Source: a virus. From it: 26,530 nt of DNA. The position numbers were made by a program, and so were the translations under genes. The stretch covers positions 1-26,530 of the IMG/VR virus record IMGVR_UViG_3300014501_000583; one strand, written 5' to 3'. The stretch's first letter is position 1. The number at the start of each line of letters is the position of its first letter. The notes under the pieces are model-generated. The model worked only from the letters and a program-made list of their open reading frames with translations. It did no database searches and was not told where the DNA came from. Positions 1,361 to 24,934 of this stretch are shown here, piece by piece.

Positions 1361-3013
1361 GTGATTGACACTTTCGAACTCGACCGCGCGATACCGCGCG
1401 ACGCGCTCCTCACGCAACTAAAAGACCATTCCAAAGCGCCGGCCTCAGCACGCGGGCACCACGATGCGCAGCCTGCAGCCGAGTTCTACGCGCTGGGGCA
1501 AAACGTCGGCATCGTACTGGACGGCAAGTTCATCGGCGTCGACATCGACCGCCCCGACATCGACGAGGCGCGCTTCCTCGCCAAACGGCTCGACGAAACC
1601 GGCACCTGGCGGCAGCGGACCCCCCACGGAAGGCACTGGCTGTTCCGCATTCCGGCCGGTTTAGAGCTCGGAAACGGGATACTGCCCGACAATTTCGGTA
1701 ACTCGTATGGAGACATGAAGACCCTCGGGTTCCTCGTAGCGCCCGGCTCGGAGGTTCGTTGCGACGGTCGAAAGCACGGCGGAGCGCCCTGCGCGGCCGA
1801 GGCGTACGCGATCGAATGTGCGACGGATCCGGTGCCCGCGCCCGATTGGATTCTCGCGCTCGCGGCGGCGGGCCACAAAGCGGCCCGGGAGGCGTCGGGG
1901 GCGCGCCGCGACACCATCCCCGTCGGCGAGCACGACAACGCCATGAGCGCGATTCTGGGCCAGGTGGCGCGGTCGCTGCAGGCCCGGCTCTCCGAGGACG
2001 CCCTGGCGCGCGTCGGACGCGCGATCGTGCGCGAGGCGGGCATCCTCGAGCCCTCCGCGCACCGTCCATTCGGCGAAGGGGACTTCCGGCGCTGGGCGGG
2101 GTCTGCGGTGCGCCACGGCGACGATAAGCCGCTCTACGACAACGTGGGCGACCTCGCACCGGCGGGATGGGTCGAAGGCGTCGAAGCGCTGGAGGCGGCG
2201 GACCGCACGCCCAAGCGCTGGTGGGTACCGGGGTTCTTTCCGCGCGGCGAGCTCGTGATGCTCTTCGGCCGGGGCGGCATCGGCAAATCGACCGCGGCGG
2301 CCTGGCTTGCCGCCCAGGTGACGCGCGAAGGGGGCACGGTCGGCTACCTGGGCGTCGAGGAACCCTTCGCCAAGTTCATCGACCGCGCGGTGCTGGCCGG
2401 CGGCGACTTCAACCGCATGGTGGCCGCACCGCAAGCGACGCTCTTTCCGCGCGACCTGCCGGCGCTCGAGGTCAACCTGCGGCTGCGCGGCGTCGACGTG
2501 CTCTACATCGACTCGATCTACTCCCACTTCGAAACGACCGCCCACGGCGAGAACGCTGCGGTCCACGCGCGCCGGTGCCTCGGGCCGCTGGCGGCCCTGG
2601 CGATGCGCTCGGGCGTGACGATCATCGGGACGTTCCACGAAAACAAGGCTGGCGAGTTCCTCGGCTCGGTCGAGATGGTCAACGTCGCCCGGCACATCAT
2701 CAAGGCGTACCGCAAGCGCTCGGGGCCGCTCATGCTTCGAGTTTGGAAAACGAATCTCAAAGAACCCGGCTACGAGCTCGGACTCCACGGCGAAGAACTC
2801 GATCGCGTGGACCCGCTGACCGGGGAACTCGTTTACGAAATCGACGAAGCGGGGGGGCTTGCTGCCGAGCGCATCATCATCCCAACGCGGACCGAGAGGA
2901 TTCTCGCGTCGATCGAACTCTCGGAGGACGACCTCGCGCCTCCCGATGGGCAGACAGTTCGTGAAGCAATGACAGAGACGAAACGACGCTATAGGAAGAA
3001 CGTAAGTGTTTGA
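1361..3013 (+). CDS. Primase-polymerase fused to RepA-like replicative helicase ATPase
   Basis: A 550-residue replication protein with two domains. Residues about 1-170 match the bifunctional primase/polymerase (PrimPol) family: the metal-binding motif IGVDIDRPD (D61, D63), TPHGRHWLF (H92) and the MKTLGFLVAPGS block. Such domains make primers on single-stranded DNA. Residues about 285-470 are a RecA/RepA-type ATPase: Walker A GRGGIGKST (303-311), Walker B LYIDS (381-385) and TFHENK (424-429), the segment where RepA-like helicases place a conserved His. The C-terminal 40 residues look helical and may be a winged-helix remnant. Start is GTG at 1361, without a good ribosome site. It probably primes and unwinds for the polymerase at 6197. 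The domain calls are firm; hexameric helicase activity is inferred from the family. Confidence 0.9.
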   Translation: MIDTFELDRAIPRDALLTQLKDHSKAPASARGHHDAQPAAEFYALGQNVGIVLDGKFIGVDIDRPDIDEARFLAKRLDETGTWRQRTPHGRHWLFRIPAGLELGNGILPDNFGNSYGDMKTLGFLVAPGSEVRCDGRKHGGAPCAAEAYAIECATDPVPAPDWILALAAAGHKAAREASGARRDTIPVGEHDNAMSAILGQVARSLQARLSEDALARVGRAIVREAGILEPSAHRPFGEGDFRRWAGSAVRHGDDKPLYDNVGDLAPAGWVEGVEALEAADRTPKRWWVPGFFPRGELVMLFGRGGIGKSTAAAWLAAQVTREGGTVGYLGVEEPFAKFIDRAVLAGGDFNRMVAAPQATLFPRDLPALEVNLRLRGVDVLYIDSIYSHFETTAHGENAAVHARRCLGPLAALAMRSGVTIIGTFHENKAGEFLGSVEMVNVARHIIKAYRKRSGPLMLRVWKTNLKEPGYELGLHGEELDRVDPLTGELVYEIDEAGGLAAERIIIPTRTERILASIELSEDDLAPPDGQTVREAMTETKRRYRKNVSV

Positions 3014-6000: not shown

Positions 6001-6200
6001 TGCACACGCTCGTCGAAGTCGAAAGCACCGCCGACCCGAACGACCTGTTCACGCAGTACCGTTATCGGTGCTCGTGCGGTAAGGTCGGAGAGTGGCAACG
6101 CGGTGCGACGTTCTACTCGTCGGGCGCCGCTCGCGACCACGCGCTCGGGGCGTTCGTTGAGCACAAGTACCCATCGCATGTGGTGTCTGCCGCGAAGTGA
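6000..6200 (+). CDS. Small hypothetical protein with a CSC motif
   Basis: A 66-residue protein. ATG at 6000 is chosen over an in-frame GTG at 5955 because it forms the same TAATG junction as the gene before. C24-S-C26 in YRCSCGKVGEW resembles half of a zinc ribbon, and the C-terminal part has three histidines (H47, H55, H60) that could complete a site. Its stop overlaps the polymerase GTG start (GTGA, 6197-6200). Function unknown. Confidence 0.55.
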   Translation: MHTLVEVESTADPNDLFTQYRYRCSCGKVGEWQRGATFYSSGAARDHALGAFVEHKYPSHVVSAAK

Positions 6201-8464
6201 TCTGTACGGCCTGCCCTCTCCATGAGCACGCGCTCTCGAATTGCCTCGGCGGCATCGGCACCGGACCGCTGCTCGTGGTCGGAGCCTACCCCGGCTCGCG
6301 GGAAGACATGGACGGCGAACCGTTCGTCGGTCCGACCTCCGACTTGCTGCGCGACATGCTCGCGGACGCGGGATTCAAGCCGTCCGACTACGCGCTGACC
6401 AACGCCATCCGCTGCGCGCCGCGTCGCGACGTGTCGATTGAGGTTGCGCATATCGACGCTTGCCGCAACCACCTGCGGGACGAGATTCATGCGCGCCGTC
6501 CCGAGGCCATCGTGGCGTTGGGAGACGTGGCGCTGCGCGCGCTCACCAAGATGTCGGGCATCACCGCCCAGCGCGGCAAGTCGTTTCCGCTCCATGCGGA
6601 CTTCGGCTACGCGTGCGAGGTTTGGCCTACGCTGCATGCGGCCTACGTCGCGCGCGAGGGCAAACACCGCCCGACCGTCGTCGCGGACTTCCGTCGCGTG
6701 CGTGACCGCGGGCTTCCTCCCGACGAGATCGCTTGGTCAGCGTGGCCCGCGCATCCGCACCGCGGCACCATTGCTTGGGACATCGAAACCGACTTCGACC
6801 GCAAGACACGCACCGGCGGCGACCGCGTGACCTCGATCGCGTTCGCGTCGGCGGCGGGCGTCGATGTTATGCAGTCCGACCCGCTGGGAGCCGCCACGGC
6901 GGAGTTCCTGTGCTCGGCCGGCGCGACGTTCTCCGGGCACAACTCGCGGCGGTTCGATGTCGTGCGGATGCGCGCGGCCGGGGTCGCGGCGCCATTCGGC
7001 GAGGACACCATGTGGCTGGCCTGGCTGCTTGACGAATCGCAGCCGCTGGGGCTGGAAGCCCTCAGCGTCAAGTACCTCGGCGCTCGCGGTTGGAAAGAAG
7101 AACGCGACGCGACGGAGGGTTCGCCCGAGCACGCGCGCTACAACGCGCGCGACGCGCTGTGGACCCTGCGGCTCTACGAATACCTGCTCGGGGCGCTGGG
7201 GCCGCGCATCCGCATCGACCGTGAGATACTGGTGCCGGGGCACCTCGCGCTGGAGGCGTGCGCGCAGCGCGGCCTGTGGATCGACGGCGCCGCGGTCGAG
7301 CGGGCGCGCGAGTCGCACGTTACCGAACGGGACGCGGCGCTCGAGGCCCTGCGCATGATCGTGGGGTCGGACGACTTCAACCCCGGTTCGACGCCACAGG
7401 TCGGCGCGGCGCTTTCGGCGCGCGGGCTGCGTCTTCCGCGCACGAAGAAGAAGGCCCAGCTCGCGACCGACAAGGCCGCCCTGGCGCCGCACCGCGGCGA
7501 TGCGCTGGTTGACGCGCTCGAACGCTGGCGCAAGGGCGCAAAGCTCATTTCGACCTACGACGACCACTTCGCCGCCATCGCCGCATCGGCCGACGGTCGC
7601 GTGCATCCGACCTACGCGCTGGTACGCTCGGAGCGCGACCCCGGTGGGACGGTTTCGGGCCGCATCACCGCCTCCGACAACGTGCTGACGCTCCCGCGCG
7701 ACCTACGCCACTATTACGCCGCGCCCCCCGGCCGCATCTACGCCGAAGCGGACTACTCCGCGCTGGAGTTCTGGATCGCCGCCTGGGTGGCGGGCGAAGA
7801 GGGCATCTTGCGGCGCCGCCGCGAGGACGCGGCGTGGGACCCGCATCGGTTCTTCGCCGCGCGGTTCTACTCCAAGAGCGAAGTCGAAGTGACGCCGCTC
7901 CAACGCCAGGTCGCCAAATCGGCGAACTTCTCGCAACTGTATCTCGGCGACGCGCACACGCTGCAGAACTACGCCGCCAAGTTAGGAATCATTCTCAGTC
8001 TGCCGCAGTGCTTTGCGCTCCACGGGGCGTGGCACGAGACGTTCCGGTTTCGCCCGTGGTACGACCGCGTCGCCGCGACGCTGCGCGCCCAGGGCTACAT
8101 CGAAACCGCGACCGGCCGGCGCCGTCACTTCGGCGACCCGCGCCTGCTCGCGGCGCCCGGTAAGTTCCTCGAAGCGCACCGCGCCGCGGTCAACATGCTG
8201 GTGCAGTCGCTGGCAACCGACATCGGCCTGCTGGCGCTCGATGCGTGCCACCGCGCGCGCTTGCCGATCGTGCATTTCTTCCACGACTCAATTTCATTCG
8301 AGTTTGAATCCCAGGGGGATTTCAATTCTGGAATCGAAGTGATACAATCATGCATGACGGTCGAGCCCGTGCGCGTGTTGCGCGAGCGGTTCGGCGTCGA
8401 TCTCTCAGTGCCGTTGAGCATTGAGGTCAAAGCGAAGAACGGAGACATTCTTGCAACAGCCTAA
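6197..8464 (+). CDS. Uracil-DNA glycosylase / 3'-5' exonuclease / family A DNA polymerase fusion
   Basis: A 755-residue three-part enzyme. Residues 1-170 are a family 4 type uracil-DNA glycosylase: C3, C6, C73 and C89 are placed as Fe-S ligands; VVGAYPGSREDMDGEPFVG (27-45) corresponds to the GEAPG..ED..G.PFVG motif with Glu replaced by Ala; PTLHAAYVAR (144-153) supplies the His motif. Residues about 190-330 are a DEDDy exonuclease with all acidic residues: D195/E197, D254 (HNSRRFD), Y315/D319. Residues about 340-755 are a family A polymerase: motif A EADYSALEF (D519); motif B R570, K574, F578, Y582; motif C HDS (D697), where most have HDE. GTG at 6197 overlaps the previous stop. It should be the main replicative polymerase. 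Whether the glycosylase domain cuts uracil or only recognises it is open. Confidence 0.93.
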   Translation: MICTACPLHEHALSNCLGGIGTGPLLVVGAYPGSREDMDGEPFVGPTSDLLRDMLADAGFKPSDYALTNAIRCAPRRDVSIEVAHIDACRNHLRDEIHARRPEAIVALGDVALRALTKMSGITAQRGKSFPLHADFGYACEVWPTLHAAYVAREGKHRPTVVADFRRVRDRGLPPDEIAWSAWPAHPHRGTIAWDIETDFDRKTRTGGDRVTSIAFASAAGVDVMQSDPLGAATAEFLCSAGATFSGHNSRRFDVVRMRAAGVAAPFGEDTMWLAWLLDESQPLGLEALSVKYLGARGWKEERDATEGSPEHARYNARDALWTLRLYEYLLGALGPRIRIDREILVPGHLALEACAQRGLWIDGAAVERARESHVTERDAALEALRMIVGSDDFNPGSTPQVGAALSARGLRLPRTKKKAQLATDKAALAPHRGDALVDALERWRKGAKLISTYDDHFAAIAASADGRVHPTYALVRSERDPGGTVSGRITASDNVLTLPRDLRHYYAAPPGRIYAEADYSALEFWIAAWVAGEEGILRRRREDAAWDPHRFFAARFYSKSEVEVTPLQRQVAKSANFSQLYLGDAHTLQNYAAKLGIILSLPQCFALHGAWHETFRFRPWYDRVAATLRAQGYIETATGRRRHFGDPRLLAAPGKFLEAHRAAVNMLVQSLATDIGLLALDACHRARLPIVHFFHDSISFEFESQGDFNSGIEVIQSCMTVEPVRVLRERFGVDLSVPLSIEVKAKNGDILATA

Positions 8465-8476
8465 CGAGGCGTCACT

Positions 8477-9346
8477 TTGACGCCGCTCGTGCTATCCTAC
8501 TCGGCTCTGAACACGTACCGGCGGTGCCCGAAGAACTTCGAGCTATCGTACGAGCGCCGCATCATTCCGCGCAAGCATTCGGAGGCCGCTGACCTCGGCA
8601 CCGCGCTGCATGAGATACTCGCGGGTGCTGCGCGCGACGCCACGGTCGAAAACCATCTCCGCGCTGCGAGCCCGGAGCAACTCGACGGGATGTTCCTCGT
8701 TGCGTCGGCCTATCTCAAGCACAAGCCTATCCCGCGCGAGGTCGTCGCGATCGAGGAACCGTATTACACGCGGCTGATTCGCGGCGTCTGGCTGCGGACG
8801 ACGTTCGACCTTGTGTACCGCGACGAGTCGAGTTGGGTCGTCGGACGCGATTACAAGTCGTTCGAGAAAGCGCCCGCGCTCGACGTAGACCTCGATTTCC
8901 AGGGCGGCATCTACGTCGCCGCGCTGCAGCGCGCGTTCCCCGACGCGATCGGGCACCGCTTCGAGTACGAGTACATTCGACGCGTCCCGCCCGGCACGAA
9001 GAACTCCACGGGCGTCTGGCGTCCCGACGAGTGCTACATCAACGTGCCGGTGGTGCAGCCGCGCCGCGAGCTCGACGTGCTCTGGGCCGAAACGCAGGAA
9101 TGGGCGCGTACCATCCTGCGCGCGCGGATGCGCGGGTCGTTTCCGCGCGCCGGCACGCGCAAAGAGTTCGGGTCGCCGTGCCTGGGGTGCTTCCAACTCG
9201 ACCTGTGCAAGGCTGAGATGCAGCACGGCACGCTCGACGACCAGGACATGGAGTTTTTTGCTGAAGGAATCGGCGAAGTGCCGACGCTCCCGGCCACCCT
9301 GCTGGCACCCTCGAAGCGCACGCTGAAGAAAGAGGTGAATGTGTAA
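8477..9346 (+). CDS. Cas4/RecB-like Fe-S PD-(D/E)XK nuclease
   Basis: A 289-residue nuclease. The N-terminal LSYSALNTYRRCP is the classic opening of RecB-family and Cas4-like nucleases, with C17 as the first Fe-S ligand; C235, C238 and C244 (CLGCFQLDLC) supply the other three. Catalytic residues are H45 (TALHEIL), D111 (FDLVY) and D125-Y-K127. Relatives are single-strand or end-processing exonucleases. The start is TTG at 8477, supported by GAGG about seven bases upstream and by the need to keep the LSYS motif. It lies just before the Sak4-like, SSB-like and VRR-NUC genes, consistent with making single-stranded ends for annealing. No CRISPR genes are near, so a Cas4 role in adaptation is not suggested. 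Confidence 0.88.
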   Translation: MTPLVLSYSALNTYRRCPKNFELSYERRIIPRKHSEAADLGTALHEILAGAARDATVENHLRAASPEQLDGMFLVASAYLKHKPIPREVVAIEEPYYTRLIRGVWLRTTFDLVYRDESSWVVGRDYKSFEKAPALDVDLDFQGGIYVAALQRAFPDAIGHRFEYEYIRRVPPGTKNSTGVWRPDECYINVPVVQPRRELDVLWAETQEWARTILRARMRGSFPRAGTRKEFGSPCLGCFQLDLCKAEMQHGTLDDQDMEFFAEGIGEVPTLPATLLAPSKRTLKKEVNV

Positions 9347-10041
9347 TGCCGAAAACGATTGACCCCGACCGTCTCGTTCGGTTTGCCGAGGTCCACTTGC
9401 GTTCCGGTCAGGGTACCGGCGGAAACGGCACGGTAGACGTGTGCTTCATGCAAGCCGTAGATTGGCTCACAGGGGGCACCGGCAAAACGGATGCGCCGGA
9501 GTGCGTGGACCCTACGATTCGTGCATTCGGCATTCGGTTGAACGACGCGGCACGATTCGCAGATTACCGCGACGAGTTGAAGGCGTACGCCGTACGCGTC
9601 GTCGGTACCAAGACAACTGCGGCTGTAACGAAACAACGAGCATTTATGTGCGCCGATTGGGCCGTGCGCACGATCGCACCCATGGCGTTCGACCACTGGT
9701 CCTCGCCGAAAAATGCTAAGAAAGCAAAAGAGTGGGCCGCCAAGCTACGCGCTGTTGCGCCTATCACAGACAAGGCGAGCGCAGAAGTAGGTCGCCAGGT
9801 GGCCCGTGAGGCACGGGCCGCCAACGCCGACGCCTACGCCGCCTACGCCGCCGCCGCCGACGCCGCCTACGCCGCCGCCGCCGACGCCGCCTACGCCGCC
9901 GCCGCCTACGCCGCCTACGCCGCCGCCGCCGCCGCCTACGCCGCCCGCTCGAAGTCTAAAGACTTCTCGCGGCAACTTTGGTGCGAATCTCTCGCGTTTC
10001 TTGATCGGCTTGTCGCAGTCACCGAAGCGGTGTCCGCGTGA
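9346..10041 (+). CDS. Ala-Tyr-Asp repeat protein of unknown function
   Basis: A 231-residue protein. The first about 155 residues look globular and helical (FAEVHLRSGQG, FMQAVDWLTGG, ADWAVRTIAPMAF). Residues about 155-200 are low complexity: an eight-residue unit of the form AAAADAAY with late copies replacing Asp by Tyr. The end (SKSKDFSRQLWCESLAFLDR) returns to normal composition. Ala/Tyr/Asp repeat helices like this recur in uncharacterised phage and bacterial proteins, some annotated as immunity-like; I cannot assign a function. The start shares a base with the nuclease stop (TAATG) and the stop overlaps the Sak4-like GTG. All alanines in the repeat use GCC, suggesting recent expansion. 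Confidence 0.75.
   Translation: MPKTIDPDRLVRFAEVHLRSGQGTGGNGTVDVCFMQAVDWLTGGTGKTDAPECVDPTIRAFGIRLNDAARFADYRDELKAYAVRVVGTKTTAAVTKQRAFMCADWAVRTIAPMAFDHWSSPKNAKKAKEWAAKLRAVAPITDKASAEVGRQVAREARAANADAYAAYAAAADAAYAAAADAAYAAAAYAAYAAAAAAYAARSKSKDFSRQLWCESLAFLDRLVAVTEAVSA
9847..9939 (+). repeat. In-frame 24-base tandem repeat
   Basis: Unit of four GCC codons, GAC, two GCC codons and TAC. Copies at 9847-9870 and 9871-9894 are identical; 9895-9918 differs by one base (GAC to TAC); 9919-9939 is one codon shorter. The minus strand of this block is a long run of GGC/GGCG with GG tracts a few bases apart, which could form two-tetrad quadruplexes. Confidence 0.9.
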
Positions 10042-10862
10042 TTTACATGCTCAACGCGGACATCACGGGCGACGAAACCGTAGCGCACCTCGTGCGTGCG
10101 GGACTCGTTACATCGCTGACCTGTCAAATGTTCCGCGATTTCGACGACCACATCATGGACCTCATTCCCAAACTCGCGCCGGGGGATGTCGTCATCATCG
10201 ACTCGATTTCGTCGCTGGCGAATCAAACGCGCGGGGACCACAAGCTCGGCACGGACGTGCTCGAATCGGTGTGGGACCGTTCGGAGATTTTCTTCCGCGA
10301 CAAGTACGGTCAACTCGGTTACGAAGCGGCCCAGCAGCAGATCATGCGTCGAGTGCGCAACATCGTTGCGGTCGGTAAGAACATGACCGACCAGGGTGCG
10401 GAGCCGTGCAGGCTCTACATCACCGCCCACCAGCGCGATCAAATCGACCCGCTGACCGGCATCAAGGGCGCGTTCGGTCCCGACCTCAACACGCAGTTCT
10501 TCAACACACTCTACGCCACGGCATCGGATATGTTCCGGCTCGACGTAGCGCTCGAAGACATCACCGACCCCGACACCGGCGCGGTGAAGGTCGCCGCGGA
10601 CACCCGGATGCTCTACCTCAAACGCTCGGCCGAGCAAATCTGCAAAAACCGCTGTGCGCCGGATGTCGCACGGAGGTTGCCGGCCGGTTTCAAGGACCCG
10701 ACCCTTCCCAAGTTGTGGCGCGTGCTCGGACGCACGGCCCCGTGCCTCGTGATCTACTCGCCGGGCGGCGTCGGTAAAACGACGCTGGTGTGCTCGGAGG
10801 CTCAAGCACTCTACGACGCCGCAAAGACGGCAGAAGCAACGGAGACGAAAGTACCAGCATGA
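10038..10862 (+). CDS. Sak4-like RecA-fold recombination ATPase with permuted motif order
   Basis: A 274-residue protein related to the Sak4/AAA_24 group of phage single-strand annealing ATPases. Visible in order: IYMLNADIT (2-10), resembling the strand after Walker A in relatives; Walker B VVIIDSISSLA (51-61, D55); RLYITAHQRD (125-134), the sensor strand; FRLDV and LYLKRSAEQICKNR (166-205), the usual C-terminal strands; then CLVIYSPGGVGKTTL (236-250), a full Walker A with K247, and a helix (SEAQALYDAA) before the stop. Relatives have Walker A near residue 10-20. Here it follows everything else, so the fold appears circularly permuted with new ends between the first helix and second strand. 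GTG 10038 overlaps the previous stop and the stop overlaps the SSB-like start, so the borders look intact. Likely partner: the SSB-like protein next door. Confidence 0.82.
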   Translation: MIYMLNADITGDETVAHLVRAGLVTSLTCQMFRDFDDHIMDLIPKLAPGDVVIIDSISSLANQTRGDHKLGTDVLESVWDRSEIFFRDKYGQLGYEAAQQQIMRRVRNIVAVGKNMTDQGAEPCRLYITAHQRDQIDPLTGIKGAFGPDLNTQFFNTLYATASDMFRLDVALEDITDPDTGAVKVAADTRMLYLKRSAEQICKNRCAPDVARRLPAGFKDPTLPKLWRVLGRTAPCLVIYSPGGVGKTTLVCSEAQALYDAAKTAEATETKVPA

Positions 10863-11530
10863 ACAACACAAGTGCCCCGTTCATTCCCGAAGAACTGCGC
10901 CAGTATCTTACCCCCGACGGCGCGCTCGATATGTCCAAAGTCGGCGATGTCGGCACGTTTACCGACATTCCCGACGGCCAATACGTCGCCAAGCTCTCGG
11001 CGGTCGACGTGCAGGATCCCAACCCGAACTTCGAGCGGCCGTCGTACTCGCTGCAGGTCGCGTTCACCATCCTCGAAGGCAAGCACAAGGAACTCGACAT
11101 CCGCCAGTGGTGGTCGCTCGAAGTGCTGCCGCCCAAGGAGGGCAAAGAGGGCGTGTGGGCGCCCGACATCGCGCGTATGAAACAGGCGGCAGCGGCCGTC
11201 GGCGCACCGATCGCGCACTTCCACGCCTTCGAACCAGAGAAGGCTCGGCGCGAACTCGCCCAGGCGCTCGGGCGCAAGACGCTCGACATCTCGGTCAAAT
11301 CGCGGTCGTACACGCCCAAGGGAACGACCGAGAAAAAGTCGCGCAAAGAAGTCGTCGTGCTCGGTATCCATAAGGCGCAGGCTGGCCGTCGCACCGCAGC
11401 CGAAATGGCCGACGTTCCGGCGGTGGCGCAAGCGACGATTCCGCAGCAAGAGCCGGAAGTTGCCGCGCAGATACAGCGCGCAACGGAGCCCGCTCCGGTG
11501 CCCGTCGAAGACATGAGCGACTTCCTCTAG
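10859..11530 (+). CDS. SSB-like single-stranded DNA-binding protein (DUF669-like)
   Basis: A 223-residue protein. The first about 150 residues are mixed strands with a pattern seen in phage OB-fold SSB-like/DUF669-type proteins: DIPDGQYVAKLSAVDV, SYSLQVAFTILEGKHK, DIRQWWSLEVL, then a helical Lys-rich part and KTLDISVKSRSYT. The tail (about 175-223) is Ala/Pro/Gln-rich and ends VEDMSDFL, very like the acidic tip with terminal Phe that SSB proteins use to recruit partners. ATG at 10859 overlaps the stop of the Sak4-like ATPase. Sak4-type annealing proteins are known to work with a phage SSB, so the neighbourhood supports the call. The exact family is moderately certain; ssDNA binding is inferred. 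Confidence 0.75.
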   Translation: MNNTSAPFIPEELRQYLTPDGALDMSKVGDVGTFTDIPDGQYVAKLSAVDVQDPNPNFERPSYSLQVAFTILEGKHKELDIRQWWSLEVLPPKEGKEGVWAPDIARMKQAAAAVGAPIAHFHAFEPEKARRELAQALGRKTLDISVKSRSYTPKGTTEKKSRKEVVVLGIHKAQAGRRTAAEMADVPAVAQATIPQQEPEVAAQIQRATEPAPVPVEDMSDFL

Positions 11531-11535
11531 GACCT

Positions 11536-11844
11536 GTGCCCAACTACGAGGACCTCTTCCGCGACCGCGTCGTGCGCCCCAACTTAGAGGCGCGCGGCGC
11601 TGTCGTGGTTCTCGTTCCAAAAACGCGCTACGGTCGCTCGGGCGTGAGTGACCTGCTCGCGTGCTACTGCGGACACTTCATCGCAATCGAGTGCAAGAGC
11701 CCCCAGGGCGGTAGTTACGGGCTCACGCCTACGCAATCCGACTTCCTTGAGAGCGTTCGCAAAGCGGACGGCTACACCGTCGTTGCACGCACGTGGGAAG
11801 AAGTCGAGCGCGTACTCGATGCGATCGACCGGAGCGAATACTAA
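11536..11844 (+). CDS. VRR-NUC family nuclease
   Basis: A 102-residue minimal VRR-NUC (PD-(D/E)XK) nuclease. E5 in the first helix (YEDLFRDRVV), YGRSGVSDLLACYCGHFIAIECK with catalytic D39 and E52-C-K54, and TPTQSDFL with Q67 reproduce the family motifs in order. Stand-alone viral members are thought to cut branched DNA such as Holliday junctions or flaps. GTG at 11536 follows the SSB-like stop by five bases with GGA just upstream. It is the last gene of the plus block; its TAA (11842-11844) overlaps the opposing stop of the virion operon. Confidence 0.88.
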   Translation: MPNYEDLFRDRVVRPNLEARGAVVVLVPKTRYGRSGVSDLLACYCGHFIAIECKSPQGGSYGLTPTQSDFLESVRKADGYTVVARTWEEVERVLDAIDRSEY

Positions 11845-11866
11845 GGCGCTCGGCGCTCGGCTTTTT
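11829..11866 (+). terminator. Possible intrinsic terminator for the plus-strand block
   Basis: CCGGAGCG (11829-11836) can pair with CGCTCGG (11854-11860) with one bulged G, followed directly by CTTTTT (11861-11866). A duplicate CGCTCGG at 11847-11853 offers an alternative, shorter-loop partner. The stem starts inside the VRR-NUC gene and the T tract lies inside the opposing virion gene. The long loop and short T run make this tentative. Confidence 0.35.
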
Positions 11867-14624
11867 CGTAGCGGCGTTCCGCCGCAGCCGACGGACGCTT
11901 CCGGTAGTACGACCCCAGAATAGATGCAAACCCCGACGCGGCGGGTGAGACGCCCGGCGGCGGCTTGTACCCCGCGCCGCCCAGCGCTCGATTGACGAGC
12001 CCCGTATCCTCGGCCAAGCCGAAGCCCGGAATCAGCGACCGGCCCACGTCCTCAAGCACGCTTCCCGCGCCGACGGTGCGGTTGGGATCGAGGTACCGCA
12101 TCCCCAAGCCGATTGGGCCCGCCGACGCGGGTGATTCGAGATAGCCGAACGGATTGGACGCTGCACGGCCCATGTCTTCGACCGGGCCCCCCATCTCGAG
12201 CTCCGAGGGCGAGCCTGACTGAAACGAGTCGTTGATCGTCCGCTGGGTGTGCGCCACGGCCTCGACGTAGTTCGGCCGGCGCATCGCGGCGCGTGCGACC
12301 GCGCCCGGTACGATGCCCAAGCGGAACGCTACGAACGGCCCGCCCATCGCATCGAGCGCCGAGATGAAGTACGACGTGTTGCGGTAGTCGCCGATGGCTT
12401 GGCGGATGATCTCGCCCTTTTTGTAATCGAGCATCACGTCTTGCATCGGGTCCGCCATGCGCGGCCACTTACGGTCCAACTGATCGAGTATCGCTTGCCG
12501 GTAGCCGAGTTCGATGCGCGTCAGCACGGTGTTCGATGCCGCGGTGTAACCGCGGCCCATCGAAGTCGCCGCGCTGGTGGCGCGTTCGATTGGCGAGAGT
12601 TCTTCGAGCGCCGAGGCGCCCAGCGGGTGCTCGATGTCGCGCACGTAGTCAGCATCGACGCCCATATTGACCAGGCGCGCGCGCTGGGGATCTTCGAGGC
12701 CCTTCGCGGCGTAGCCCAGGCCCTTCCCAAACGCTTCGGGACCGCCGTGCAGGAACGCCAGCGTGCCGACGTTCTTGATGCCGTGCGGGAACGGGTTGAT
12801 CTTGATGGCGGCTTTCTGCACGCGGCCGATGGCGCGCAGCGGTGAGCCGGGCATCGCGCGCCGGGGTCCCGACGAAAGTTTGCCGACGTTGACCGCGGCG
12901 TCGTCGCCGGTACCACGCCAGCCTGCGCGACGGGTTGCGTCGGCCTCTTCCTCCGCCGTGAGCGCGGCGCCGGGCGCGAGTCCCTTTTCCTTGGTGATCG
13001 CGGCGCGCGCTTCGCCCAGGCGCTGGGTGAGGAGTTGCTCGGTTTCGCGATCAACCATGACCTGGCGCACGCGCGCGTTGCCGAGTTTGAGCCGATTGAG
13101 CGTGCGCGCATACTGGTCAGTCTCGTGGAGCTCGCGGTCGGCCGTACGCGACTTCTCGAAGCCGCGGAACTCCTCACGATGCGTTCCGCCCGTCGTTTTG
13201 ATGATCGGCTGGTCGGCCCACCGGCCGCGCGGGTTGATGAGCGTTTGGTAATCCTCAACCAAGTTGTGATTGAGCGCGCCGGTTGGGTTTGGGAATAGCC
13301 GCAGGTCGTCAGCGGTCGGCTTATAGCCGAACTTCGCGGTGATCTCCTCGCGCATGGCGGGCGTGCCGTGACGGTAGACCTGCTGGTTGTAGAGGTCGCG
13401 CGCGGCCTGCGGCAACTCACCGCCCTTGACGTTGCGCAACGCTTCGCGGACCGGCGCGAGCGCGGCCTCGGCTTCGGCGTTGGCGATATGTTCGTAGGAA
13501 ATGTGCTTGGCCTCGACGCCCAGCCGAACGCCCTTCATGTCGGTTGCGGCCTGGCCCGCAGCGATGCGGCTGTTGCCGAGAAACCGATCGAGTTCGGGAC
13601 GCCGGCCGAATGCTTCGTGCATGAACTGCGCCATCGGGGCGTTCGACATGCGGCTGTACGCCGATTGCGCGAGCGCGCGCGTCGCCTTGATCGTGCGGTC
13701 GAAGCCGGGAACGTGCCCGCCGATCTCCCCGGCCGCATGACTCGCGATTTCCAGCAGATGCGTGCCCTTAGCCACGCCGCCGAAGATGTCGGCGAACGGG
13801 ATGAAATTGAGCGGGTCCCCGATGACGCGCACGCCCTCGCGCGCTGCCGCTCGTTCGAACCTCGCACCCAACGTGTTGCCCTTGGCGACCGGAATGTGCA
13901 GGATTCCCAAGACGGCATCGGTGTCGGCCTCGTCGTTTTTGCCGGGGTGCGTCATCGAGGTCCAACCGTGCCCGAGTCCCCCCGCGACCGTCCCGAACGT
14001 GAGGCGTTCGAGGCCCCCGCCGATGGCGTCGACCCAACCCATGGGGTCGATCGACGCCTTGTGCTGCGCGACCTTGGCGCCTCGCACCGCCGAATCGAGC
14101 GCTCCGCCGCGCGCCGCAACCGCGAGCGGGTTGACTCCGGCCTGGGCCGGATGCGCGCCGGGCGGCGTGACGTTCGCGTACTGCCCCCAACCGCCGCCCG
14201 CGCCCTTGTTCCGCGAGTCTTCCCACGGCGAGAGTCCTTGCGAGCGATGGAGCGCGACGGCCGCGCGCGCGTTCTCCAGGGGGTCGGCCGTCGAACCGGT
14301 CGGGTGAATGTCCGAAACCTGCCACAGGCCGCGGACGTGGTACGTCTTACCCTTGTCGTCGTACTGATTCGCGGCGTTGGGGTCGCCGGTCGATTCGGCG
14401 TAGGCGACGCGCGCCATGAGCGGCGCGTCCTTGGCGTCGCCGCCCGCCTTTACCCACAGCGCTTCGAGGTCTGGGAGGCCGTAGCGATGCGGCGCGGTCG
14501 CAGACACGTCCGACCAGCCTGACGCCCCGCCAGCGCCGACGCGCGGGGCCGCAGCGGGCACGTCGGACCATCCGCCGCTCGCGGGCGGCTTCGTCGCCGT
14601 CGCGGGAACGTCCGACCACGTCAC
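11841..14624 (-). CDS. Large internal virion protein with N-terminal lytic transglycosylase domain
   Basis: A 927-residue virion protein. Residues 1-45 hold three WSDV repeats (described separately). Residues about 50-150 look like a soluble lytic transglycosylase (SLT/lysozyme fold): MARVAYAESTGDPNAAN with candidate catalytic E77, then YHVRGLWQVSDIHP (95-108) and WEDSRNKG, matching the E-S-x-x-x-P-x-A and G-L-x-Q-x motifs. The rest is long, mostly helical, with charged heptad-like stretches (about 530-590) and no recognised enzyme motif. Size and position at the end of the virion operon fit the ejected internal proteins of podoviruses that open the cell wall during DNA entry. ATG at 14624 overlaps the previous stop; the TAG at 11841-11843 overlaps the VRR-NUC stop on the other strand. 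Confidence 0.85.
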   Translation of the reverse strand: MTWSDVPATATKPPASGGWSDVPAAAPRVGAGGASGWSDVSATAPHRYGLPDLEALWVKAGGDAKDAPLMARVAYAESTGDPNAANQYDDKGKTYHVRGLWQVSDIHPTGSTADPLENARAAVALHRSQGLSPWEDSRNKGAGGGWGQYANVTPPGAHPAQAGVNPLAVAARGGALDSAVRGAKVAQHKASIDPMGWVDAIGGGLERLTFGTVAGGLGHGWTSMTHPGKNDEADTDAVLGILHIPVAKGNTLGARFERAAAREGVRVIGDPLNFIPFADIFGGVAKGTHLLEIASHAAGEIGGHVPGFDRTIKATRALAQSAYSRMSNAPMAQFMHEAFGRRPELDRFLGNSRIAAGQAATDMKGVRLGVEAKHISYEHIANAEAEAALAPVREALRNVKGGELPQAARDLYNQQVYRHGTPAMREEITAKFGYKPTADDLRLFPNPTGALNHNLVEDYQTLINPRGRWADQPIIKTTGGTHREEFRGFEKSRTADRELHETDQYARTLNRLKLGNARVRQVMVDRETEQLLTQRLGEARAAITKEKGLAPGAALTAEEEADATRRAGWRGTGDDAAVNVGKLSSGPRRAMPGSPLRAIGRVQKAAIKINPFPHGIKNVGTLAFLHGGPEAFGKGLGYAAKGLEDPQRARLVNMGVDADYVRDIEHPLGASALEELSPIERATSAATSMGRGYTAASNTVLTRIELGYRQAILDQLDRKWPRMADPMQDVMLDYKKGEIIRQAIGDYRNTSYFISALDAMGGPFVAFRLGIVPGAVARAAMRRPNYVEAVAHTQRTINDSFQSGSPSELEMGGPVEDMGRAASNPFGYLESPASAGPIGLGMRYLDPNRTVGAGSVLEDVGRSLIPGFGLAEDTGLVNRALGGAGYKPPPGVSPAASGFASILGSYYRKRPSAAAERRYEKAERRAP
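14496..14618 (-). repeat. Triple WSDV(P/S) peptide repeat at the virion protein N-terminus
   Basis: WSDVPAT, WSDVPAA and WSDVSAT at residues 3-9, 19-25 and 37-43, spaced 16 and 18 residues by Gly/Ala/Pro linkers. Short Trp-containing repeats of this kind occur at the start of some other phage internal virion proteins. A docking or packaging tag is a reasonable guess. Confidence 0.8.
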
Positions 14625-16015
14625 GGCGCCAGTACGGCTCCGGTTGCCTTGTTATACCAGCGGTAGTTGCCGTGGCCGTCGTTTTGGAGGGTGAACCCCG
14701 GTTTCGGGGGGTTCGAGGGGTCGGGGCCTCCCGTACGCGCGGGGGTGCCGGGACCGGGCTGCGTGTGCGACGGAGCGCCGGTGCCGCGTACGGGGACGCC
14801 CGCCGTGCCCGAGTGCGCCGCGTCCGAAGCGTGCGAAGCGAACGCGCGCGCCGTATCGAGTTGACCTTTCGTGCTGCTCACGAGCGTCGAGAGCGCGTCG
14901 TACTGCGCTTGGAGTTCGGTCGAGGGCGGGAACCCGTTCCCAGCGTTGGACGCCATGGCTTTGGCGACGCCCGCAAGCGCGGTGTTGGCCGAATCGAATT
15001 GCGTACGCAGGTCTGAGATCGGTTTCGCGAGCGCATCGACGGTGTGAATGTTCTGCATGAACTGGCGGTTGTCCATGAGCGACTGGAGCGATTGAGAACG
15101 CAGTTGGAGATTGCGCTGTGCAACGCCCAGGTTGTCGATGTGCGTCGCCCACAGGCGCTGCTGATTCGCTTGGAACTGCGCCTCGTGAATGCGTAGCGCC
15201 TCACCTTGAAGACCGATGCGCGCGATGGCTTCCTTCTCGCGCGCTTGCGCGATCGCTTTAGCCGTAGCGTCAGCATTCTGGAGGTGAATGCCGCGCTCGT
15301 GCAGCCAGTCGATTTGGGCGTTTGCCCACTGCGAGGTGCCTGAGGCAAGGAACTCCGGCGTCAGGAACTGGTCGATTGAAAACCCGCCGCCGATCTGCGA
15401 TGCCGGGCCGCGCATCGCTTCGATCTCACCGGCGAACGCGGTCGGGTCGAGCTTCCCCGCTTTGAACTGCGCGACGGCGCCGCTCGGACCGATAAAGTCC
15501 TGCACGATGTTCGTAGCCGCCCCCGCGTTGAGCGGCGTGTACTGCTTGGCGGTCAGCCACTCGGGCGGGACGTTGCGGACCTTTGCGAGCGCCGCCGCGC
15601 GGTCCTCGGTCGGCATCGCGACGATTTTCTGAAACAGTTCCTGCCGCTCCGGCATCGTCATCGAGGACACGTCGGGATGCGCCGTGAGCAGGTCGAGATT
15701 GAGCACTTGGTTGCCGTGCTCGTCGGTTTTGACCGGTGGCGGCAAACCCGTCTGCCGTGCAATGTCCATCGCGCGTTTGATGCGCGCGGGGTCGTTGGCA
15801 AGGGTCGGGTCGGCGGTGATCTCGTCGCCGATCTGCGAGTAGAGCTGCTTACCCAGCGCCGTCTTTTGAGCCTGGAGCGCGAGCGCTCGCATCTGCGCGT
15901 TCTGCTGCATCTGCGGAAACTGCGAGAGCGCAATGCCAATCTGTGCCAGGGGGTTGACGATGCCCGGCGGCTGCGCGATGGGCTGCTCTTCGAAGGACCC
16001 GATACCTGCGGTCAT
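14621..16015 (-). CDS. Helical virion protein
   Basis: A 464-residue protein, largely alpha-helical and Gln/Ala-rich: PQMQQNAQMRALALQAQ near residues 34-50 and long helices at about 245-310 with coiled-coil character. The last 60 residues are Pro/Gly/Thr-rich followed by a compact GNYRWYNKATGAV ending. There are no catalytic motifs. Position between the ATP-grasp gene and the transglycosylase protein, with immediate TAG-ATG contact to the former and an ATGA overlap to the latter, suggests an internal core or ejection protein, like the middle members of podovirus internal protein sets. No family was recognised, so the virion role rests on context. Confidence 0.78.
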   Translation of the reverse strand: MTAGIGSFEEQPIAQPPGIVNPLAQIGIALSQFPQMQQNAQMRALALQAQKTALGKQLYSQIGDEITADPTLANDPARIKRAMDIARQTGLPPPVKTDEHGNQVLNLDLLTAHPDVSSMTMPERQELFQKIVAMPTEDRAAALAKVRNVPPEWLTAKQYTPLNAGAATNIVQDFIGPSGAVAQFKAGKLDPTAFAGEIEAMRGPASQIGGGFSIDQFLTPEFLASGTSQWANAQIDWLHERGIHLQNADATAKAIAQAREKEAIARIGLQGEALRIHEAQFQANQQRLWATHIDNLGVAQRNLQLRSQSLQSLMDNRQFMQNIHTVDALAKPISDLRTQFDSANTALAGVAKAMASNAGNGFPPSTELQAQYDALSTLVSSTKGQLDTARAFASHASDAAHSGTAGVPVRGTGAPSHTQPGPGTPARTGGPDPSNPPKPGFTLQNDGHGNYRWYNKATGAVLAP

Positions 16016-17335
16016 CTACGACTCCAAGAGGCCCGCGTGGACCTCGAACCCGGCTTCGATCAACTTCTCGGCCGCGGCCTTGCAGTCATCCGCGCCGTCC
16101 GTACGAAACTGCAGCCCGCGCACCTGGAGCACGTCCTTGGCGTATTCGATCACGCGGTCGTGGATATCGTCGATCGCGTCTCCGGTGTCCGCCGCCAGTC
16201 CGACGCAGCCTTCGGGCCCCGCGACCTCTAGGGTGTTCTCGTCCTTGCCGGCGCGCACGGCGTAGGGGATGAAGCGACCGTCCCACAAGCCGTCAGCGCC
16301 CCGGATGCGCGTCCCGTCGGCGCCGCCCTTGTCGGAGCGCTTGCCGTGCTCCCAAGGGTACGGCGGTACCGAGAGCCGTACGGCGTAGGCGAGTTCGGTC
16401 GAGGGTTCGGGGACCTCGGCGCCGTGCGCTACCGCTTTGAGGTGCGCTCCGAGGTTGGGCAGGAGCAGCGCGGCGGTCATCTCGGCATCGTAACCCATGC
16501 GAGGCGTCCACTCCAAGAAGTACACATCGCCCTCGTCGGCGACCAGCGCGTTGATGTCGTAGATGCCGGGCGGCGCGTTGTAGCCGCGAAACGCTTCGGC
16601 CAACTGCGGCCACCCCAAGCGCCGTGCGATCTCGGGTTCGTCGTCGTAGAACCACACGGCATTGAACGCACAGCCCGTCGATGGCCCAACGTCCTCGTTC
16701 ATAAACTTTTTGTTTTCGTAGGTCGCCTCGAACGGTCCGGTCCAGTCCTTACCGTTCCACCAGCGCGCGGTCGAGAACGGCACGCCGTCGATCTTGCGCT
16801 GCAGGATGCAGGTGCCGTGCGCACCGTGCTCCGCGATCAACTCGTCGAGGTATTCGGCGAGCTCCGCACCGTTGTCCGCGCCGTGCGTTGCGTCCGATTC
16901 GAGGTAACGGTCCGACTTGAAGTACATCGGGATGTCGAGCTGCGCGGCGCGGGCGCGGGCTTGGTCGAACGACGCGAACTCTTCGTAGGGCGGGAGTAGC
17001 GCACCGGCGTCTTTGGCGACCTTGAAGCCGAAGGAACGGTCGTTCTCCAAGCGGTCGCAGAACGCGCCGCCGCCGACGGTTGCAATGCCGAGCGCCCGTG
17101 CCGCATCGGCCTTCTCGCCGAGCTTCGAGGATCCGAACAGCGCCAGCGCGTCGGACGGCTTTTCGTGCAGCCACGCCAGACCGTCTTCCCACGTCGCGAA
17201 CTTCTCAACGAGGCCGTTGCCGACCGACTTCGCAGCCTGCGGTTGAATCCAATACCGCACGTCGTGGCCTTCATCAAGCAGCCGCATGACCCACGAGAGT
17301 TCGTACGCGAAATCGGTCGCAACGAGAATCCTCAT
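16016..17335 (-). CDS. PurD-like ATP-grasp ligase encoded in the virion operon
   Basis: A 439-residue protein resembling phosphoribosylamine-glycine ligase (PurD) over its length. Seen: a Rossmann-like start MRILVATDFAYE (1-12); GGGAFCDRLENDRSFGFKVA (88-107), matching PurD's G-P-S..A..LE.SK.F.K; lysine K140 (MYFKSD); ILQRKIDGVPFSTA (177-190), like the E-x-x-x-G-x-E-x-S strand; NEDVGPSTG (213-221), like DGDxGPNTGG; YFLEWTPRMG (272-281), like the metal-binding E-F-N-x-R-F-G; and a C-terminal domain with ENTLEVAGPEG. Differences: the N-terminal GGREH phosphate-binding motif of PurD is absent, and the metal-binding Asn is Thr. So it probably activates a carboxylate with ATP but may not use phosphoribosylamine. 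It overlaps the gene before by ATGA. The substrate is unknown; a role in modifying virion protein or a small molecule is inference. Confidence 0.82.
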   Translation of the reverse strand: MRILVATDFAYELSWVMRLLDEGHDVRYWIQPQAAKSVGNGLVEKFATWEDGLAWLHEKPSDALALFGSSKLGEKADAARALGIATVGGGAFCDRLENDRSFGFKVAKDAGALLPPYEEFASFDQARARAAQLDIPMYFKSDRYLESDATHGADNGAELAEYLDELIAEHGAHGTCILQRKIDGVPFSTARWWNGKDWTGPFEATYENKKFMNEDVGPSTGCAFNAVWFYDDEPEIARRLGWPQLAEAFRGYNAPPGIYDINALVADEGDVYFLEWTPRMGYDAEMTAALLLPNLGAHLKAVAHGAEVPEPSTELAYAVRLSVPPYPWEHGKRSDKGGADGTRIRGADGLWDGRFIPYAVRAGKDENTLEVAGPEGCVGLAADTGDAIDDIHDRVIEYAKDVLQVRGLQFRTDGADDCKAAAEKLIEAGFEVHAGLLES

Positions 17336-17925
17336 CCCGCATTCGGGTTGCCGTAGCCGTAGGCGTACGAATCCCCCAGCAGGTTGTTGCCCCCCGTGGC
17401 GCCCGTTTTGCCGCCGCCGCTTCCCATCTTAGAAGCGACGCCGTTCAACGCGCCGCCGATCCCCTGGCCGACTCCCTGACCAGCGCCCGAGGCCGCGTTC
17501 ATGTACGGATTGACGAGCGACGAGAGCGATCCGGTGAGGCCCGAGCCGATGCCGAGCAGGCTCGAGATGTCGCCCATCGCGGCCTGTTTGCCTTGAATCT
17601 GACCGGCCATGCCCTCCTGGCCGATTTGGGAAGCGGTGTTCTCGACGACGGCGCCGGGGTTGGCGATCGACCCGACGCGCGACATCATCGTCTTCATCGC
17701 CGAGGTGCCGGCCGACGGAAAGAGATTGGCGTTTTCGAGCGACCCCAGCAGTCCGCCGTTGGGGCCCGTCCCGTTGAGGATACCGTTGATGTCGTTCATC
17801 ATCGACTGATAGCCGCCGGTTTCCAACCCCGTGATGGTGTTGGCCTGGCCCATATCCTGGTTGTACTGATTTGCGGACGACCCGGCGCCGAAGAGGCCGC
17901 CGATGATCGGGATTGACGAACTCAT
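17332..17925 (-). CDS. Gly/Ser-rich small virion protein
   Basis: A 197-residue protein of low complexity: PIIGGLFGAGSSANQYNQ at the start, Gly/Ala/Met/Asn-rich helices in the middle (about 20-130) and a Gly-rich tail ending YAYGYGNPNAG. ATG at 17925 is chosen because it makes an ATGA overlap with the GNAT stop; an upstream in-frame start would lie deep in that gene. Phages often carry small proteins beginning with a Gly-rich hydrophobic stretch next to internal virion protein genes. It could interact with membranes during ejection; unproven. Confidence 0.72.
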   Translation of the reverse strand: MSSSIPIIGGLFGAGSSANQYNQDMGQANTITGLETGGYQSMMNDINGILNGTGPNGGLLGSLENANLFPSAGTSAMKTMMSRVGSIANPGAVVENTASQIGQEGMAGQIQGKQAAMGDISSLLGIGSGLTGSLSSLVNPYMNAASGAGQGVGQGIGGALNGVASKMGSGGGKTGATGGNNLLGDSYAYGYGNPNAG

Positions 17926-18389
17926 TTGCCCAGCCCCAGCGCCCACACAGCCGCGATCGGCTTACCCCCGCGGGAGCCCATCGCGCGCGCCATGACGCGG
18001 TTGACGCGGTGGTTGTCGTTGAGCACCGACGCGACGACGATGCGTACGTCGCCCGAGTCGTAGAGGTGCGCCAGGCGCGTGATGGTCGCCTCAAGCGCGC
18101 GAGCGCCCAAGCGGTTCGGGTAGACGTACAGGCCGCCGACCTCGAGCGACCGCTTTGCCATGTCCCAGGTGATGCCCAGCACGCCGCCTACGCGGCCGTA
18201 GGACCCATCGGGGCGCATCTCCACGATCGCCAGCCAAATCGGCGAGAGAGCCTCGCCGTCGGTCGGCAAGCCGAACCGCGCGCAGTACCGCCGGAAGAGG
18301 TCGCGAGCGACGCCGCGCTGCTCGGGCGCGAGCGGCGGCCAAGCAAACGAGGCCGTTCCGGCAGGCGCGACGTACTCCGGGGCGATCAT
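17922..18389 (-). CDS. GNAT-fold N-acetyltransferase-like protein
   Basis: A 155-residue protein with the GNAT layout: an N-terminal helix-strand part; central strands WLAIVEMRPDG and RVGGVLGITWD; LEVGGLYVYPNRLGARALEATIT (about 82-104), where the strand and following helix correspond to motif A that binds acetyl-CoA pyrophosphate, although the canonical R/Q-x-x-G-x-G/A is replaced by N-R-L-G-A-R-A; then VRIVVASVLNDNHRVNRVMARAMG, the usual N-x-x-x-x-x-x-x-x-x-x-G ending. It sits in the virion operon two genes before the ATP-grasp enzyme, with ATGA coupling to the gene between. It may be a real acetyltransferase or a GNAT fold used structurally, as seen in some phage virion proteins. Forty bases without a gene separate it from the fibre gene. 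Confidence 0.72.
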   Translation of the reverse strand: MIAPEYVAPAGTASFAWPPLAPEQRGVARDLFRRYCARFGLPTDGEALSPIWLAIVEMRPDGSYGRVGGVLGITWDMAKRSLEVGGLYVYPNRLGARALEATITRLAHLYDSGDVRIVVASVLNDNHRVNRVMARAMGSRGGKPIAAVWALGLGK

Positions 18390-18429
18390 GGGCGAACCCT
18401 ACCCGAAATGGGGGGTTTGAGCAAGGCGA

Positions 18430-19479
18430 TCATCCGAGCCGCTGGGCGTTGTTGAGCGAGGAAATCTGGGCTTGCGTCAGCGCCGCGTTGTGGACGATGG
18501 CTTTCCCGAAAGAGGCTGGCACATTGTAACTCGCACCGCCAACGAGCGCACCGATCGTGATTGGGTTTCCACCTTTTGCATAAGCAAGAGTCGCGCTCCC
18601 GACCGGAAATCCATTGACGTAAAGTGTGCCGACTGTTCCGGTATGCGTGAACGCAAAGAAGATCGGCCCGAGCGGTACCTGGGCGCCTGACAAGAAGTTG
18701 CCGACGGTGATTGAGGCATAGGTACCAGCGCCCCCAAACTGTATAGTCAAGGCTCCGCCGCTGGTGTAGAGAATGAACCCGGTGTCTGAGCCGCCGACGT
18801 TTGCGTTTGTGTCCCAAAGGCTATACAAACTGGCCGCGGGGTCCCACTTCGGATTGAACTCGCACATGGTCGCGAACGTGAACCCAATCGTCGTCGTGTT
18901 GTCCGGGACCGTTGCGTAGCCTGTCGCGCCATCGAAGATCGGGCAACCTTCGCCGTCGTTGCGTAACGCGACCTGATTCAAGAGCACCCCGGTACCGGCG
19001 TATGTTCCAGTCGCTCCGCCGGTTGTACCGCTGTCGGTGATGTTCGTTCCAGTCGTCTCATTCATCACATAGTAGTGCTGAACCAACGCTTGCGCGGTCG
19101 TGTCGAATACACCGCCGGGAGGTGACGGTAGCGCTGCTGATGCCCACGCGCCGCCGACCGACGTGAGCACATTGCCCGCGGCACCCGGGGCGAGAAACGA
19201 AATGACCGGAGTTGTGCCGCCGCTCGAAAAAACCGGCGAGGTCGCGGTGACGGACGTGACTCCGCCGCCGCTGCCGCCCGACGCCGAGATGACGAAGATG
19301 CCGGAGCCCGGCGGCGTCTCGACGATGGTGACGTTCGTCCCCGGCTTGAGCGTGATCGTGCCTTCGCGACCGTTGACCGACAAGACGTAATCGCCCAGCG
19401 CCGTCACAACTTGCGACGGAAACGGAACGCTGCCCGGAGCGCCCTTGACCCACTGACGTCGCCAGACCTGATTCGCCAC
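18430..19479 (-). CDS. Tail fibre or adhesin with LamG/concanavalin-like domain
   Basis: A 349-residue protein. The N-terminal about 120 residues are fibre-like, rich in Ser/Gly/Thr/Val (VTSVTATSPVFSSGG), with LSVNGREGTITLKPGTNV resembling the short repeats of phage fibre shafts. Residues about 135-345 look like a LamG-type jelly-roll: DGEGCPIFDGATGYATV, FAFTHTGTVGTLYVNG, GNPITIGALVG and the closing IVHNAALTQAQISSLNNA. Such domains bind carbohydrates. GTG at 19479 overlaps the previous TAG by one base. A host-surface receptor-binding fibre is the best reading. Confidence 0.82.
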   Translation of the reverse strand: MANQVWRRQWVKGAPGSVPFPSQVVTALGDYVLSVNGREGTITLKPGTNVTIVETPPGSGIFVISASGGSGGGVTSVTATSPVFSSGGTTPVISFLAPGAAGNVLTSVGGAWASAALPSPPGGVFDTTAQALVQHYYVMNETTGTNITDSGTTGGATGTYAGTGVLLNQVALRNDGEGCPIFDGATGYATVPDNTTTIGFTFATMCEFNPKWDPAASLYSLWDTNANVGGSDTGFILYTSGGALTIQFGGAGTYASITVGNFLSGAQVPLGPIFFAFTHTGTVGTLYVNGFPVGSATLAYAKGGNPITIGALVGGASYNVPASFGKAIVHNAALTQAQISSLNNAQRLG

Positions 19480-19877
19480 TACCCGGTGCCGTTAAAGATG
19501 CTCGATACGAACGATTGCATCGGATCTTGGATCATGCCTTGGCTCAAGCCGCCGCCTCCACCGAGGTTGGGGTTCGCGACCTGTCCCAGCCCGCCGAAAC
19601 CGCCCTGCGCGGAGGGGGAGCCTCCGCCCATGCCGCCGATTTTGCCCATGATGTCCTGCGATTGCATGGCCGGCGCCGCCGAGCCGGTGACGCTACCGAG
19701 TTTGTCCATGGCGTTCGTCGGTTGCATCGAGGGCGACGCGCCGGTTGGCGCGTTCGACGTGTTGGGCGTTGCGGTCGTCGGCGTTTTGGTCGTGCCCGAC
19801 GCGACACCTTCCGGGTTTTGACTCGGCAGGCTCGATGGCGTAGAAAGCTTTGAGCCCAGACTTCCGAGGAAACTCAT
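19479..19877 (-). CDS. Small Gly/Ser/Thr-rich virion-associated protein
   Basis: A 132-residue protein beginning FLGSLGSKLS, then a Thr/Pro/Ser/Asn-rich disordered stretch (about 15-55) and a Gly/Met/Gln-rich half with GGFGGLGQV and GGGGGLSQG. It ends DPMQSFVSSIFNGTG. There is no fold I recognise. The start overlaps the tail hub stop (ATGA) and the end abuts the fibre gene, so it is part of the tail operon. It may be a tail accessory or an internal protein with membrane affinity. Confidence 0.7.
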   Translation of the reverse strand: MSFLGSLGSKLSTPSSLPSQNPEGVASGTTKTPTTATPNTSNAPTGASPSMQPTNAMDKLGSVTGSAAPAMQSQDIMGKIGGMGGGSPSAQGGFGGLGQVANPNLGGGGGLSQGMIQDPMQSFVSSIFNGTG

Positions 19878-21910: not shown

Positions 21911-21918
21911 ACCCCACG

Positions 21919-22734: not shown

Positions 22735-22736
22735 GA

Positions 22737-24932: not shown

Positions 24933-24934
24933 GA

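Follow-up and report, generated by a model that had tools for sequence, protein, structure and literature searches.

Can a RecA-type ATPase be encoded by a reading frame in which the Walker A motif comes last, behind Walker B and the entire usual Sak4 C-terminus, or is such a frame an artefact, a remnant or a composite? The question is raised by positions 10038-10862 of a 26,530-base IMG/VR virus sequence, a single metagenomic record with ends classed linear, the whole of which was analyzed and is called the window here. In a first-pass annotation the product of this frame had been read as a Sak4-like RecA-fold ATPase in circularly permuted order.

The frame is uninterrupted from a GTG start to a TGA stop on the plus strand (274 codons, each translated into one amino acid; alternative ATG at 10047), and its coordinates bear out the 4-nt overlaps with the neighboring genes that had been noted at both ends, with the ORF at 9346-10041 upstream and the ORF at 10859-11530 downstream. 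Along the product, a strand (IYMLNADIT) and its acidic stretch (VIYMLNADITGDE) came first, followed by Walker B, the sensor, K-x-R, the C-terminal motif, a linker, β1 with Walker A, and a helix. Walker A and Walker B are both present, as SPGGVGKT at residues 241-248 and VVIID at residues 51-55, and the former (S241-PGGVGK-T248, with K247) lies downstream of D55 in Walker B, of the sensor strand and of everything that forms the C-terminus of a usual Sak4. All five motifs named in the first-pass annotation were located in this one frame with their residue numbers checked, and the order given for them was confirmed (Table 1). The first residue of Walker A is Ser instead of Gly or Ala, and Ser is likewise found in some ordinary Sak4s (JacoRen57, L025). 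A second, normal Walker A near the N-terminus had been named as a point that would count against the permutation; it was looked for in the upstream part of the frame, in the other frames upstream, in the neighboring ORF and, as part of a Sak4, throughout the record, and none was found. The GGTGKT of the upstream ORF 9346-10041 was considered as a hidden Walker A and rejected for its lack of P-loop spacing.

Table 1. Coordinates of the candidate permuted Sak4 gene, its parts and the adjoining genes in the window.
Feature	Position	Strand	Basis
Candidate circularly permuted Sak4-like RecA-fold ATPase, 274 aa	10038..10862	+	Profile matches, rotation, AF2 model
New N-terminus: predicted strand, residues 2-6, equal to ordinary Sak4 β2 (E25-30 of L050)	10041..10055	+	DSSP of AF2 models, alignment
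Walker B strand VVIIDS, residues 51-56, D55 (within VVIIDSISSLA)	10188..10205	+	D55 invariant, 42-sequence alignment
Sensor segment TAHQ, residues 129-132 (within RLYITAHQ)	10422..10433	+	Sequence, alignment
K203-N-R205 (within CKNRC), putative equivalent of trans-acting K229/R231 of Sak4-52A	10644..10652	+	PMC11846896; R205 invariant
Sak4 C-terminal motif DPTLPKLWRVL, residues 220-230; C-terminal end in ordinary Sak4s	10695..10727	+	Alignments
Five-residue linker GRTAP, old C-terminus to β1	10728..10742	+	Sequence, DSSP
β1 CLVIY 236-240 and Walker A SPGGVGKT 241-248 (K247)	10743..10781	+	phrog_124 positions 43-63, shuffles
α1, predicted long C-terminal helix 249-269, and tail	10782..10859	+	DSSP of AF2 model
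PD-(D/E)XK exonuclease	8477..9346	+	PF12705 E 5e-18; phrog exonuclease
Alanine-rich ORF, 231 codons, phrog_13065-like in front part	9346..10041	+	PHROG profile match
SSB-like protein, acidic tail ending EDMSDFL, likely partner	10859..11530	+	phrog_7778 SSB, E 0.0024
VRR-NUC / Holliday-junction-resolvase-like nuclease	11536..11844	+	Pfam, PHROG profiles

Both pieces of the product are homologous to Sak4 and occur in swapped order. The PHROG Sak4 profile phrog_124 matched residues 32-207 with an E-value of 2e-14, and it matched twice within the one frame, with nucleotides 10131-10658 aligned to profile positions 94-236 and nucleotides 10737-10799 to positions 43-63. The Pfam family AAA_24 (30.8 bits against a curated cut-off of 27) was matched in the same swapped manner, by the body of the ORF at positions 47-195 and by the tail at positions 3-20. 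After rotation of the sequence, with the tail put first, each profile gave one continuous match, covering 43-236 of phrog_124 and 3-195 of the 195 positions of AAA_24. An HMM built from 12 ordinary phage Sak4s aligned residues 26-232 of the natural sequence to model positions 64-246 and residues 235-257 to positions 21-43; the rotated sequence was matched as a single domain (21-244) at 35.3 bits, compared with 28.2 bits for the natural one. With a 53-sequence HMM, which is dominated by one Sak4 clan, the two swapped domains were kept, but rotation added nothing to the best-domain score (22.1 to 22.3). The isolated tail scored 14.1 bits against the Sak4 HMM, which none of 5000 shuffles reached (best shuffle, 5.8). 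Searched separately, as the first-pass annotation had proposed, body and tail aligned to opposite ends of ordinary Sak4 profiles. Taken alone, the P-loop tail is too short to prove descent from Sak4 as against another P-loop protein.

Walker A precedes Walker B in all 55 other Sak4s that were compared (12 from annotated phages and 43 from IMG/VR). Because this order is reversed in the 10038-10862 product, the ORF was filed as a circularly permuted derivative and not as an ordinary Sak4 member. No variation was seen among the aligned relatives in the Asp of Walker B, the Arg of K-x-R or the Pro of the C-terminal motif, and the permuted ORF keeps all of these, together with the NPTxPKL-type C-terminal motif itself. 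The 15-40 residue N-terminal lead of ordinary Sak4s and their C-terminal tail are both absent. In the structure of the 52A Sak4, ATP is contacted by K41, T42, Y216, K229, R231 and H232, with K229 and R231 supplied by the next subunit (PMC11846896), and the Staphylococcus Sak4 3MRA carries these residues at exactly the positions of the 52A paper (numbering checked). By alignment, K203 and R205 of the permuted ORF appear to be the equivalents of K229 and R231, the trans-acting contacts. A Glu that follows β2 in a DPExGTD-type motif is present in at least 90% of the ordinary relatives and is not clearly kept in the permuted ORF; it is the catalytic Glu of RecA and Sak4, E58 in the Staphylococcus protein. 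The corresponding region reads NADITGDE, where the alignment is ambiguous among I9, D8 and D12 and D8 and D12/E13 are the closest acidic residues. Hydrolysis could be slower if this Glu is lacking.

The structure of the product was predicted with AF2 from an MSA that covered the ORF body only, as added Walker A fragments were misplaced. The model had a pLDDT of 77 and a pTM of 0.75, with a low value of ∼60 in the P-loop region (241-260), and it contained the elements E2-6, H13-20, E24-28, H32-45, E51-55, H57-76, H87-116, E125-136, E143-148, H152-161, E164-176, E183-193, H200-203, H208-213, E217-219, H223-230, E236-240 and H249-269. For the ordinary-order control L050 (AF2 pLDDT 91.5) the elements were E4-9, H15-20, E25-30, E44-48, H51-63, E70-74, H76-94, H105-123, E128-138, E148-151, H155-163, E167-179, E186-197, H199-203, E213-216 and H220-228. 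In this fold-prediction check, which the first-pass annotation had called for, the permuted list equals that of the ordinary protein with its first two elements, β1 and α1, shifted to the end; the extra elements are the helix at 208-213 and a short one that follows the first strand, and α1 is predicted to span 21 residues compared with 6 in L050. The best PDB match of the model was the solved Sak4 8rc5, in which model residues 1..232 aligned to chain residues 50..257 (Z 11.8, rmsd 3.1, 168 aligned), and chain residue 50 lies just past the Walker A of 8rc5. The ordinary control aligned from chain residue 27, before Walker A (Z 18.5, rmsd 2.7, 180 aligned), and the alignment to RAD51 started at residue 156 for the permuted model versus 119 for the control. 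These alignments of the body to solved structures, the predicted element order and the swapped two-piece profile matches support the reading as a circular permutation. The DSSP assignment of residues 236-240 as a strand means that β1 pairs with another strand, probably that of Walker B. The fold as a whole is predicted to be a RecA core without the C-terminal domain, with low confidence in the P-loop part.

Upstream of the permuted Sak4, the window encodes a helicase, a UDG-DNA polymerase A fusion and a PD-(D/E)XK nuclease, and downstream an SSB-like protein and a VRR-NUC protein. In MaVan, Cozz, JacoRen57 and ctfzr933 the gene order is polymerase, nuclease, Sak4 and then a small or SSB-like gene. 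The recombination context had been described as a nuclease gene before and an SSB-like gene after; the SSB-like gene is in place, but the nuclease does not lie directly upstream, as the alanine-rich ORF 9346-10041 intervenes. An ORF of this kind is absent from the place between nuclease and Sak4 in the five relatives MaVan, ctfzr933, Opt-155, Cozz and JacoRen57. Within it, a degenerate 9/15-nt repeat (YAAYAAAADAAYAAAA) forms a tract at 9817-9950. Elsewhere in the window, 6197-8464 encodes the fusion of a uracil-DNA-glycosylase-like domain with a family A DNA polymerase, all of it covered by one phrog_17 stretch, and 1361-3013 encodes a Prim-Pol domain fused to an AAA_25/RecA-like ATPase whose motifs are in ordinary order. 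The minus strand of 11841-25100 holds a late module of long ORFs, mostly without a PHROG or Pfam match; the exceptions with a family match are an SLT lysozyme-like domain, a laminin-G-like domain and an SU10-type adaptor. With most of its late-module ORFs unmatched, the phage is distant from known groups.

No real close relatives of the permuted protein were found in viral contigs, genome contigs, phages or plasmids, and its neighbors (polymerase, nuclease, helicase and a 927-aa virion protein) had no relatives in viral contigs. One candidate relative, L001, was rejected as a baseplate-like protein with a low-similarity match. Queries spanning the junction, used for permuted siblings, returned only single-piece matches with E > 0.1, which were judged to be AAA-type chance matches and rejected, or two-piece matches in ordinary order. 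The permutant appears to be a singleton, known from a single sequence, and as no second permuted sequence was found, conservation of the permuted form and selection on it cannot be shown.

In our view, the product is very probably a Sak4-family RecA-like ssDNA-annealing ATPase whose chain has been circularly permuted in nature, and probably an ATP-dependent annealase. The old N-terminal unit (β1, Walker A and α1) would have moved to the C-terminus, where the five-residue linker joins it to the old last helix, while new chain ends would have opened between α1 and β2 and the ordinary N-terminal lead and C-terminal tail would have been lost. The rearrangement may have arisen from a tandem duplication in which both outer parts were later lost. 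The chain would most likely take up the usual RecA core fold, in which the P-loop strand lies next to that of Walker B; ATP would bind where two subunits meet, with K203/R205 of the next subunit closing the site. We infer a folded, active enzyme capable of ATP-dependent annealing, which would coat and anneal the ssDNA of the phage together with the SSB-like protein of the adjacent gene. RecA-like proteins usually polymerize through an N-terminal segment, and the N-terminal lead forms the interface. The loss of this lead and the new ends at the α1-β2 turn could alter the filament contacts, and it is possible, though less likely than not, that the permutant is an active recombinase which assembles on ssDNA differently, without the N-terminal polymerizing segment. 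The Sak4 of HK620 binds ssDNA and performs ATP-dependent annealing that is stimulated by the neighboring SSB (PMC5928155). A phage recombination role like that of HK620 Sak4 is our best guess for the permutant, because the needed parts are present and an SSB-like gene adjoins.

An assembly chimera, with the true gene in ordinary order and pieces of the contig wrongly joined, would fit a single metagenomic record with ends classed linear and an alanine-rich repeat tract ∼90 nt upstream. It is highly improbable, as a ∼130-nt piece would have to be carried past a 700-nt body and joined in frame twice while both gene ends keep their 4-nt overlaps, and a search for repeats gave none at the junctions that explains a mis-join. 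A clean swap would moreover bring the ordinary N-terminal lead and C-terminal tail to the junction, where both are absent and the 5-residue linker stands instead. That simple misassembly is unlikely, as claimed in the first-pass annotation, is borne out by the single frame, the overlaps and the trimmed junctions. The codon-position GC bias stays in frame across the body and the junction and fades only at the very end: GC3 is 11/22 (0.50) in the last 22 codons (10797-10862) versus 0.81 in the rest of the gene (binomial 0.0009), possibly a mark of a recently made C-terminus. The unusual GC3 would also agree with an ordinary Sak4 that lost its N-terminus and gained a C-terminal P-loop from another ATPase, a protein that would be functionally permuted without its own ends having been joined. 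The matches of the tail to several P-loop families are about as good as that to Sak4 (AAA_16 E 0.003, CbiA 0.02, AAA_24 0.07), and residues 209-253 weakly resemble a VCP-like AAA protein in sequence. However, the best PHROG match of the tail is Sak4, at the right profile positions, the tail completes the model with no strand missing, and duplication with loss is the customary route to a circular permutant; a foreign origin of the P-loop is therefore unlikely.

That the rearranged gene is decaying and no longer yields a working ATPase seems quite unlikely, given an uninterrupted frame with normal GC3 across body and junction, the retained Walker B, K-x-R and C-terminal motif, the tight operon overlaps and a record that holds no other Sak4, even if the catalytic Glu has no clear counterpart, the P-loop is divergent with Ser in its first position and predicted at low confidence, and there are no relatives to show constraint. 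A swapped assembly, in which each chain lends its C-terminal P-loop unit to the active site of the neighboring subunit instead of completing its own, is very unlikely: the linker is short, and Sak4 and RAD51 work as filaments with shared interface sites (PMC11846896), yet the monomer model already has residues 236-240 as a DSSP strand.

If the permutant is an active recombinase, it would show that the RecA/Rad51 fold and its shared ATP site survive when the P-loop unit is shifted to the opposite chain end. If the protein works, its ends lie in new places, without the N-terminal lead that forms the interface and with the P-loop lobe as C-terminus, and it would be a natural test of the chain connections that RecA-type ATP sites and filaments need, as well as possibly a useful annealase scaffold. 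Circular permutation in P-loop NTPases is documented for GTPases (PMC2430557), and permuted methylases also turned up in the literature search. No description of a permuted RecA/Rad51-type protein was found in the open-licence papers searched, and within these papers the search agrees with the first-pass statement that permutation is known in GTPases and not in the Sak4/RecA family.

With the Sak4 proteins (PHROG 124; phages HK620 and 52A; PDB 8rc5) the permuted ORF shares the body fold, Walker B, the trans K-x-R, the C-terminal motif and an adjoining SSB-like gene, whereas its Walker A unit is C-terminal, the N-terminal lead is missing, α1 is predicted to be much longer (21 versus 6 residues) and the catalytic Glu cannot be clearly matched. 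The RAD51, RadA and DMC1 cores have the RecA-fold body in common with it, with a structure match of Z ∼10, but differ in the order of elements, at ∼10% identity, and the permuted ORF has neither their N-terminal domain nor a polymerization segment. The circularly permuted GTPases (YRG/RsgA family, cpRAS; PMC2430557) likewise represent a natural permutation of a P-loop NTPase in which G1/Walker A stands behind later motifs; the permuted Sak4, in contrast, belongs to the RecA-like ASCE branch, another superfamily, and is cut at another point.
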